A stretch of DNA of 64,000 nt from the NCBI GenBank assembly GCA_020851035.1, contig JADZDM010000010.1, positions 62,001 through 126,000 on the forward strand. Reading direction: 5' to 3'. The position numbers and the translations under genes are program-made. This document shows, piece by piece, positions 34,525-46,219 of this stretch. The stretch's first letter is position 1; the number at the start of each line of letters is the position of its first letter. This DNA comes from Gemmatimonadaceae bacterium. GTDB taxonomy: Bacteria; Gemmatimonadota; Gemmatimonadetes; Gemmatimonadales; Gemmatimonadaceae. The notes beneath the pieces were generated by a model. It saw nothing but the letters and a program-made list of their open reading frames with translations, had not been told where the DNA came from and searched no databases.

Positions 34525-34586
34525 CGAAAAGCCCGGCCGTGCCAGGAACGCGAGATCGCTGCGTTCCGGCACGGCCGGGCTTTTCG
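34525..34586. terminator. Very long bidirectional terminator
   Basis: A 26-bp stem with one bulged A (left arm 34525-34551, right arm 34561-34586), ending in AAAA on one side and TTTT on the other, between the OmpA-fusion and cytochrome genes, which converge. Confidence 0.9.
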
Positions 34587-34636
34587 TCTGTCCATGACAG
34601 GCGTCCGGGCCGACCCGGACGCGCCAGCCCGCGCGC

Positions 34637-43537: not shown

Positions 43538-44971
43538 ATGCGCCCGCTTCGTCCCCTCGTCCTGACCCTGCTGCTGGCCGCCGGCCCGCTGGCGGCGCAG
43601 GACACGCCCACCGAGCGTGCCGTCGCGCGCGACGTGCTGCAGAAGATGGCTGTCCTCCAGCGCACCGTGGACGTTGCCGGCTGGACCACGCGACTGGCCG
43701 CCCCCGATGCGGCCCGCGACCGCGTGGCGGCGCGTGCGAAGGCCCTCATGGACAGCGAGCTGCTCGCGATGGGTGACGACATCACCCGCCACCCCGAGAT
43801 CGGCTTCAAGGAGGACCGGTCGGTGAAGATCCTCACCGACTGGCTCACGGCGCACGACTTCGAGGTGACGATGAACGCCGGCGGCTTCAGCACCGCGTTC
43901 GTCGCACGCAGCCGTCGCACCACCGGCGGCCCGGCCATGGGCATCGTGGTGGAGTACGACGCGCTCCGCGGCACGCAGGGCGACTATCACGGCGACCAGC
44001 ACAGCACGCAGGGCCCCGTCGGCCTCGCCGCGGCACAGGCACTGGTGGAGTGGCTGGTCGCGACGAAGACGCCGGGTCAGGTGGTCGTGATCGGCACGCC
44101 GGCCGAGGAGATGATGCCGCCGCCGGCGAAGACCGTGATGCACGCCGCCCACGTGTTCGACGGCCTGGACGTGGTGGTGCGCAGTCACTCGAGCATGGCG
44201 ACGCAACGTGCCGGCGCCGGCTTCGGCAGCTGCTGCCTGAACATCGACGGCGTGAAGTACACCTTCACCGGCGCCCCCGCGCACCAGATGACGCCGTGGG
44301 ACGGCCGCAACGCACTCACGGCGGTGCGCCACCTGTTCAACAGCGTCGACGCGCTGCGCGGCAGCATGCGCCCCGAGGCCCGCATGCAGGGCATCATCAC
44401 CGAGGGGGGCAAGGCGCCGAACGTCGTCCCCGACCGCGCCGTCGCCGACTTCTACATCCGCTATCCCGATGCGGTGTACCTGGCCCAGATGCGCCAGCTC
44501 ATCGACGACGCCGCACGGGGCGCCGCCCTCGCGACCGGCACCCGCGTGCAGATCGAGACCTATGGCTCCATGCGCGATGGCATCAGCCTCGGCACGCTGA
44601 ACGAGGCGGCCTTCGTGCACGTGAAGCGCTACGGCGGCGGCAAGGTGCAGGTGGAGCCCGGCAAGCCGCAGGGCTGGGAGGAGACCGGCAGCGTGTCGAG
44701 CGCGGTTCCAGGCGTCGGCCTCAGCGCCTGGACCTCCAACGGCGGCTACCACACCTACGAGATGCTGGAGGACGCCCTCGGTCCCGTCGGCCACGCCGGC
44801 TTCACCGTCGACGCACAGGCCATGGCGGCACTGCTCTACGACTTCGCCAGCAAGCCCGCCTTCCGCGCCGCGGTGAAGCAGGAATTCGAGGGCCTGAAGG
44901 GGCTCTACGAGGAGTACCAGGGCGCCCTCAAGGCCGCCTACACCCTGCCCGTCGTCCGCGATCCCAAGTAG
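43538..44971 (+). CDS. Secreted M20-family amidohydrolase (AbgB-like)
   Basis: This 477-residue protein has a signal peptide (cleavage near PLAAQ, residue 21) and the M20 dinuclear zinc fold. Landmarks are HPEIGFKED, VVEYDALRG, HGDQHSTQG (metal His), GTPAEEMMP (the catalytic Glu pair), VRSHSSMA and the lid region FTGAPAHQMTPWDGRNAL. It resembles p-aminobenzoyl-glutamate hydrolase and other amide hydrolases. It starts divergently from the TPP-controlled receptor, 235 bp apart. A role in releasing thiamine parts is possible but speculative; ordinary peptide or amide breakdown is as likely. Confidence 0.88.
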   Translation: MRPLRPLVLTLLLAAGPLAAQDTPTERAVARDVLQKMAVLQRTVDVAGWTTRLAAPDAARDRVAARAKALMDSELLAMGDDITRHPEIGFKEDRSVKILTDWLTAHDFEVTMNAGGFSTAFVARSRRTTGGPAMGIVVEYDALRGTQGDYHGDQHSTQGPVGLAAAQALVEWLVATKTPGQVVVIGTPAEEMMPPPAKTVMHAAHVFDGLDVVVRSHSSMATQRAGAGFGSCCLNIDGVKYTFTGAPAHQMTPWDGRNALTAVRHLFNSVDALRGSMRPEARMQGIITEGGKAPNVVPDRAVADFYIRYPDAVYLAQMRQLIDDAARGAALATGTRVQIETYGSMRDGISLGTLNEAAFVHVKRYGGGKVQVEPGKPQGWEETGSVSSAVPGVGLSAWTSNGGYHTYEMLEDALGPVGHAGFTVDAQAMAALLYDFASKPAFRAAVKQEFEGLKGLYEEYQGALKAAYTLPVVRDPK

Positions 44972-45016
44972 CTGCTGGCCGCAACGGAAAAAGCAACGGA
45001 ACAAGCAACGGCAAGA

Positions 45017-45248
45017 GCAACTGCTTCAACGCAAAGACGCAAAGGAACAGCGCAAAGGACGCAAAGAGGTCGGCCCGGAAGTCGACGGTCGCATCACGCG
45101 AGGCGTGAAGGAATTGAGGGGAACTGCGGTTGCACTTGCAGTTCCCCCAGCCTTTCCGATGCCCCTCGCCACACCGACAGTCGCATCACGCGCCGACCTC
45201 TTTGCGTCCTTGCGCTGTTCCTTTGCGCCTTTGCGTCAATGCAGTTGC
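45017..45248. repeat. Palindromic repeat element, about 230 bp
   Basis: This noncoding element fills the gap between the M20 and isomerase genes, which converge on it. It has terminal inverted arms of 57-58 bp (45017-45074 and 45192-45248, about 90% identical) built of GCAAAGG-type units. Just inside lie two 17-bp direct copies (45084-45100 and 45176-45192). A perfect 10-bp hairpin (GGGGAACTGC, 45118-45127/45138-45147) is at the centre. It looks like a miniature mobile or REP-type element and would form a large cruciform or RNA hairpin. Confidence 0.9.
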
Positions 45249-45259
45249 AGTTGACGGAC

Positions 45260-46219
45260 TCAGAGCCCAGCGATGAAGTCGTAGCTGCGCTTGAGCGCGA
45301 CATCGGGGTTGGCGACGACATCCTGCTCCACGAAGTAGTGCGCGACGCCCGAGCGCCGCGCCTGCGCCACGATCGAGCGGAGGTCGAGCACCCCGTCGCC
45401 CGCGGTGGTCATGTACGGGAACAGCTCCACCCACTCGCCCGAATTGCCGCCGTTGCCGCGGAAGCGCTTCCGCTCCTTCATGTCCTTCAGGTGCAGCATC
45501 GTGTAGCGGCCCGGGTGCGCGCGCAGCAGCTCCACCGGGTCGGCGCCACCGGCCGCGGTCCAGTACACGTCCATCTCCAGGTACACCAGCGACGGGTCGG
45601 TGCGCTCCAACAGGAGCTGCAGCGGCACCTGCCCGTCCATCGGCGTCAGGCCGTAGCCGTGGTTGTGATAGGCGAACTTGAGCCCGTTCCGCTTCGCCTC
45701 CGCGCCGACGGCGTTCATCGCGTCGGCCATGCGCCGGTACGCATCCAGGTCCTGACGCAGCTCGTCGGGGATGGACGGCAGCACGACGTACTCGTACCCC
45801 ACGTCGTGCGCCGCCTCCGCCAGCCGGCCCATGCCGCGCTGCAGCGTGAACCAGTCCGTGTGCGCGGAGGGGGCCTTCATGTGGTGCTCGTCGAGGATGG
45901 CGCGCACCTGGCGCCCCGTCATCCCGAAGAAGCCGCTCCCCGCGAACCCGACCTGCGGGATGATCTTCGCCCAGGCGTCGATGGCCGCCTGTTCGCTGAA
46001 CGCGTACGGTCCGAACAGCTCCACCTCGCGGTAGCCCATGCCTGCCAGCATGGCGATGGTGCCGCGGAAGTCGGCTTCCAGCATTTTCGGCACCGAGAAC
46101 AGCCCCAGCCCGACGTTGCGCAGGCGCGTCGGCGCCGGAACGAGGTGTCCGTCGAGGCGGGAGAGGCTGCCGGCGGCGGCGGCCGCAGCAGAAGTGAGCA
46201 TGAACTGACGGCGATCCAT
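45260..46219 (-). CDS. Exported sugar isomerase/epimerase-like TIM-barrel protein
   Basis: This 319-residue protein belongs to the xylose isomerase-like TIM-barrel family (COG1082). A Tat-type signal (MDRRQFMLTSAAAAAAGSLS) leads to the barrel. Metal-site residues include Glu in MGYREVELFG, the HNHGYG motif, LEMDVYW and MLHLKDM. These enzymes isomerise sugars or inositols, or act on sugar acids; exported copies are frequent in soil bacteria and mostly uncharacterised. The gene ends 12 bp from the palindromic element. Confidence 0.9.
   Translation of the reverse strand: MDRRQFMLTSAAAAAAGSLSRLDGHLVPAPTRLRNVGLGLFSVPKMLEADFRGTIAMLAGMGYREVELFGPYAFSEQAAIDAWAKIIPQVGFAGSGFFGMTGRQVRAILDEHHMKAPSAHTDWFTLQRGMGRLAEAAHDVGYEYVVLPSIPDELRQDLDAYRRMADAMNAVGAEAKRNGLKFAYHNHGYGLTPMDGQVPLQLLLERTDPSLVYLEMDVYWTAAGGADPVELLRAHPGRYTMLHLKDMKERKRFRGNGGNSGEWVELFPYMTTAGDGVLDLRSIVAQARRSGVAHYFVEQDVVANPDVALKRSYDFIAGL

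Follow-up and report, generated by a model that had tools for sequence, protein, structure and literature searches.

The nested inverted repeat found between two convergent genes in the analysed window (the whole stretch of 64,000 nt from a Gemmatimonadaceae bacterium) is one of about 60 copies of a family of long, nested extragenic palindromes dispersed through its genome. The outer arms of these palindromes vary by genome yet stay complementary within each copy, the two partners co-varying. The reading favoured here, to which we give somewhat better than even chances, is that the family is a dispersed repeat resembling a two-way terminator, conserved in its structure, with arms that turn over through template switching or conversion.

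The element spans 232 nt (45017–45248), and its features are collected in Table 1. Aligned as inverted copies, its 58-nt arms are the same in 53 of 59 columns (90%), and both contain repeated GCAAAG units, in agreement with the first-pass annotation, which had described arms of about 90% inverted identity with GCAAAGG-type units on either side of a central hairpin; the hairpin is also present. The two 17-bp direct repeats described there do exist as a pair, each of them being 18 nt long, with one mismatch. The lower GC content of the element (59.9%, compared with 71.3% in the window and 69–71% in the flanking genes) was likewise borne out, as was the convergent junction by gene calls. The element covers most of the intergenic gap rather than filling it entirely, as had been claimed, since the interval between the stop codons (44972–45259) measures 288 nt, of which the element leaves 45 nt free before the left arm and 11 nt after the right arm. 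Folding as a single strand, a check that the annotation had proposed, placed each strand below all 200 shuffles (z −14.6 and −15.8). In Rfam 15 no family reached its curated score; the only hits were plant microRNA models well under their cut-offs, which any long hairpin yields.

Table 1. Features of the nested palindrome and its flanking genes (window coordinates).
Feature	Position	Strand	Basis or remark
Left convergent gene, M20-peptidase dimerisation domain (PF07687)	43538–44971	+	Gene call and domain search; stop codon 44969–44971
Three 12-nt tandem units, GCAACGGAAAAA-type	44981–45016		Interval between left stop codon and left arm; repeat search
Left terminal motif GCAACTGC (family form GMAACNGC)	45017–45024	+	Alignment of 100 ends; edges of duplicate pairs
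Left arm, purine-rich, repeated CGCAAAG units	45017–45074	+	Sequence and repeat search
Inner direct repeat, copy 1, CGACGGTCGCATCACGCG	45083–45100	+	Repeat search
Minus-strand core tail, T-rich, TCAATTCCTTCACG	45104–45117	-	Possible termination zone of right gene; family T profile; weak in window copy
Central hairpin GGGGAACTGC (45118–45127)-GGTTGCACTT-GCAGTTCCCC (45138–45147)	45118–45147		Common to other genera
Plus-strand core tail CAGCCTTTCCGATG	45148–45161	+	Possible termination zone of left gene; family T profile; weak in window copy
Inner direct repeat, copy 2, CGACAGTCGCATCACGCG	45175–45192	+	Repeat search
Right arm, inverted left arm, ending in GCAGTTGC (45241–45248)	45191–45248	+	Repeat search
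Right convergent gene, xylose-isomerase-like TIM barrel (PF01261), possible TAT signal	45260–46219	-	Gene call and domain search; stop codon 45260–45262

The search for further copies that the annotation had suggested was successful and revealed their dispersal. In the genome of origin (4.97 Mb, 34 contigs), a nucleotide search returned 115 matching stretches, and the arm word ACGCAAAGRMGCAAAG occurred 119 times when one mismatch was allowed, compared with a single match for the reversed control. The fetched loci comprised 64 seed places, with both arms present at 50 and a polarity of GCAAAG..CTTTGC. The alignment of 100 ends showed that GMAACNGC is common to the element ends, about 10–14 nt outward of the outermost GCAAAG, and runs of GCAAC or GAACNGC resembling the 12-nt tandem units of the window lie at the ends of other copies. 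Furthermore, three pairs of copies are 92–96% identical across all or most of the element, with unrelated flanks and exact edges near GAACNGC, and have thus been dispersed recently.

The interior blocks of the copies form a mosaic. Two further hairpin modules, GAGGCCCCGATGCGCATGGAG.. and GCGGCCTGCGGCCGCCGC, were considered as separate "second REP" families and this was rejected, because nearly all their clear matches lie within or beside elements, as expected of modules and not of independent repeats. A hairpin module GAGGCCCCGATGCGCATGGAG..CTCCGCGCATCGGGGCCTC was seen at varying positions inside the elements of loci L063, L066, L067, L070, L072 and L082. Runs of GAACGGCT, GCAACA or GCAACG units were also observed at outer element ends (L056:5490-5640, L066:2480-2535 and L299:1870-1930), suggesting repeat slippage at these places.

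The copies are strongly concentrated where genes converge. Using the uncurated gene calls of a codon-usage gene caller, 35 of the 49 classified copies were assigned to convergent gene pairs, 13 to tandem and one to divergent pairs, against a background of 26 convergent pairs among 176 neighbouring pairs in control stretches (P = 8e-14). At the convergent copies, the stop codons lie near the element on both sides. Core copies in other genomes were convergent in 17 of 25 cases and never divergent.

The centre of the element can be followed through its relatives. In a scan of 288 genomes from the order, the core pattern GGGAACTGCN{2,30}GCAGTTCC matched 57 times in the genome of origin (both strands counted) and recurred in further genomes of its genus, as well as in g19 and g12, two other genera of the family (17, 16, 9, 8, 8 matches and so on in these two genera). 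It was found at a single place in one g23 genome and as stray matches in other genera of the family, with no match in the two other families of the order included in the scan. The reversed control gave two matches in total, both in pattern-free genomes and none in those bearing the pattern. Long palindromic arms enclose the core in the copies inspected from other genera, a few of which (e.g., L276 and L292) are less clear, and these arms differ from those of the genome of origin (CCACGGATTNCACGGAT, ACCGCGGAGATTCGC, ACCGCGAAGGACGAAGGGCGCGAAGG and others). Read by eye, the arm units are roughly C-R-C-R-R-A, spaced every 8–11 nt, with a purine-rich 5´ arm. The co-variation of the partners is reflected in a mean arm similarity score of 28.9 within copies versus 24.0 between copies, with none of 10,000 permutations above 26.4. 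Copies with the family core and other arms also occur in the genome of origin, at L101:1718, within L101:1564-1920, and at L050:353-381 (CCACGGAGCCACGGAGGGCACGGAGG; CGCGGAAAACGCGGAAAA). In the closest pair of copies, 18 of 100 arm positions had changed versus four of 143 in the centre (P = 6e-5). Across twelve pairs the figures were 12.7% for the arms versus 16.7% for the centre, and a general rule of faster evolution in the arms than in the centre was rejected, as it holds for the closest pair only.

The comparison with a sister species covered 1.06 Mb. Among ten junctions with the same neighbouring genes, six held palindromic elements, three were empty and one contained an intervening gene. 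In the empty junctions the genes abut or nearly do so (gaps of about 0, 28 and 78 nt). The six occupied junctions have arms different from those of the genome of origin, with the same core in one of them; four fold at z below −6 and two weakly. Strong palindromes were present in 13 of 104 convergent gaps of the sister species, compared with 13 of 659 other gaps. Orthologous convergent gaps were occupied in five of nine cases versus a background of 18% (P = 0.013), an excess that is only suggestive, since the cases are few and some contigs were chosen for carrying matches.

Several properties of the core resemble those of a transcription terminator. Outward of the core, T reaches 65–67% at positions +8 to +10 in the other genomes, within DNA of about 70% GC, and 31–52% at +6 to +11 in 32 copies from the genome of origin, both sides pooled. 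For DNA of 70% GC, this profile is the signature of a two-way intrinsic terminator: in the family core, a stable GC-rich hairpin is followed by T-rich stretches on either strand. The position of the family fits as well, with convergent genes and both stop codons near in 35 of 49 copies from the genome of origin and 17 of 25 from other genomes. Judging from these features, the element probably halts transcription from both convergent genes. The terminator role proposed by the first-pass annotation is compatible with the core hairpin of the family; in the window copy itself the T tails are weak, and nothing is called there by a simple scan for terminators. An ordinary terminator separately adjoins the element at two other junctions, which indicates that the element is not required for termination everywhere. 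Moreover, the window contains an ordinary two-way intrinsic terminator (GAAAAGCCCGGCCGTGCC..GGCACGGCCGGGCTTTTC, 34526–34589) between convergent genes and unrelated to the family. Together with the adjoining terminators, it suggests that the elements add to the termination repertoire of the genome rather than constituting it.

In the proposed mechanism, RNA polymerase arriving from either gene would read the near arm first and then the core. The core hairpin would be the first to form, and the transcript would end in the T-rich stretch behind it. In the case of read-through, the far arm could fold back on the near one to give a hairpin of about 230 nt, which would block antisense run-on and 3´ exonucleases. 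The arms would keep their complementarity while drifting to genome-specific words through template switching, replication slippage and conversion between copies, with structure and place being better kept than sequence as a consequence. Published work describes how a switch of template in the course of replication can give rise to stems, fix the way they pair and make inverted arms alike (PMC8794818, PMC8604942). The three processes combined would account for arms made of tandem units, for co-varying partners and for words specific to each genome.

The arms have a distribution of their own. The 21-nt arm word ACGCAAAGRCGCAAAGGRCGC matched at least 120 contigs in genomes of many phyla (L116-L235), where, by our estimate, about half of one match would be expected by chance. 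Among the matches listed are Chloroflexota, Bacteroidota, Acidobacteriota, Cyanobacteriota, Myxococcota, Planctomycetota, Verrucomicrobiota, Desulfobacterota and Pseudomonadota. About half of the matches listed have an inverted partner within 500 nt, around unrelated centres, and the polarity is that of the genome of origin (69 downstream versus 10 upstream partners among the matches listed). The family core was absent from all the cross-phylum loci examined, and these palindromes showed no convergent preference (seven of 35 placed loci). Neither the arm word in a relevant setting nor its recurrence across phyla was found in the searched literature. The arms could belong to a separate and so far unnamed class of palindromes with CRCRRA-type units, patchily distributed in many phyla, wrapping local hairpins and being moved or copied through some enzyme or replication mechanism, a class which in this bacterial family captured a two-way terminator core. 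We regard this possibility as tentative and rather doubtful.

The first-pass annotation had pictured a miniature mobile element and would have deemed a mobile origin unlikely had the genome and its relatives contained no other copy; the further copies remove that objection. A non-autonomous MITE would carry its arms as terminal inverted repeats recognised in trans by a transposase, and the convergent bias would reflect survival at sites where no gene or promoter is hit. The recent copies with exact edges near GAACNGC and the empty sites in the sister species speak in its favour. So does the arm 21-mer: across many phyla, in at least 120 contigs, it keeps the same polarity around unrelated interiors, as would be the case if the arms travelled together with an enzyme. 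However, there is no direct target duplication above the permuted level (longest direct flank match 4.42 versus 4.55 permuted), no arm pair surrounds a gene at the fetched loci as an autonomous partner would require, and, single pairs and trp genes apart, no neighbour gene recurs in the genome of origin or in other phyla. The terminal inverted repeats are conserved within the genome of origin and replaced between related genomes while the core stays, which is the reverse of the behaviour of an element defined by its terminal inverted repeats. With neither target duplication nor a gene between the arms, "miniature mobile element" describes the dispersal and not a demonstrated mechanism, and we consider a MITE origin unlikely. 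In searches for a vehicle, plasmids gave no match; among 2.9 million viral contigs, an 18-mer gave 20 matches with no sign of a viral vehicle and a 22-mer gave none.

The other proposal of the annotation, a REP-type sequence, would have the element moved as a REP/BIME by a RAYT or TIRYT, a REP-associated tyrosine transposase. In its favour, the elements are extragenic palindromes located at the 3´ ends of genes, the genome of origin has three Y1 transposase genes, and REPs elsewhere also favour convergent and tandem gaps (PMC3733652). Nevertheless, profile searches for Y1_Tnp (PF01797) found no match in the element-rich genomes G075, G086, G083, G079, G020 and G151, nor in the element-bearing G002, and the arms of the element lie beside none of the three genes in the genome of origin. 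Two of these genes, L043 (G000:C25:163197) and L045 (G000:C2:173384), are ringed by short inverted repeats of their own (GTTCAAGGGGACGGAGATCTTGAAC; CCGGTGACAGTGCAC), like the TIRYT systems, in which Y1 transposase genes have been described as possessing their own long terminal repeats (PMC3733652); the third has no clear flanking repeats. The 232-nt unit with GMAACNGC ends is also far from the 20–40 nt and the GTAG or CGTC tag of a REP. This origin was rejected, being highly improbable when element-rich genomes lack Y1 genes and the Y1 genes at hand have unrelated repeats. A purely mutational history can also be envisaged, in which slippage and template switching at the hairpin gave an ordinary two-way terminator its long arms and, without mobility, the copies spread by recombination. 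The 8–11-nt degenerate tandem units and the co-varying partners are consistent with it, as is template switching, a known source of hairpins that also maintains them and makes their arms alike (PMC8794818, PMC8604942). However, whole copies that are 92–96% identical in unrelated surroundings make slippage alone insufficient, and the same arm word in unrelated phyla is left unaccounted for, so that this history appears improbable. An SbcD-like gene, tried as the reason why such palindromes are tolerated, was uninformative, since every genome tried has one, whether or not it carries elements, mostly with scores below the cut-off.

The reading of a structure-conserved, two-way terminator-like repeat has wider implications. 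Repeats are usually traced by sequence, and here place and pairing outlive sequence within one genus, so that the family provides dozens of natural experiments, running in parallel, on the origin, continued pairing and tolerance of long palindromes. The family is also a possible set of portable two-way terminator-like parts, and the recurrence of the arm word in unrelated phyla poses a concrete question that can be addressed with public genomes.

The ERIC/IRU, Correia/NEMIS and RUP sequences are MITE-like bacterial repeats: palindromic, intergenic, 100–250 nt long and devoid of coding capacity. The element shares all these traits and differs from them in that no target duplication was found and in having a conserved centre with changing ends instead of conserved ends. 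The DNA uptake signals of Neisseria and Pasteurellaceae, words of 9–11 nt generally present in at least 1,000 copies, act as terminators (PMC1852404). They too are repeated genomic words that form terminator hairpins at gene ends, whereas the core of the element accounts for only about 57 pattern matches with both strands counted. REP/BIME sequences and their RAYT or TIRYT partners (PMC3733652, PMC2817692) are likewise dispersed extragenic palindromes built of mosaic modules at gene 3´ ends, from which the element is set apart by its length of about 230 nt, by the lack of a GTAG/CGTC tag and by the lack of association with a Y1 transposase. Finally, bidirectional intrinsic terminators share with the family core a GC-rich hairpin between convergent genes with T-rich outer sides. 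The element differs from them in its weak tails in the window copy and in being a multi-copy, sequence-conserved unit enclosed by arms of about 58 nt whose sequence changes.
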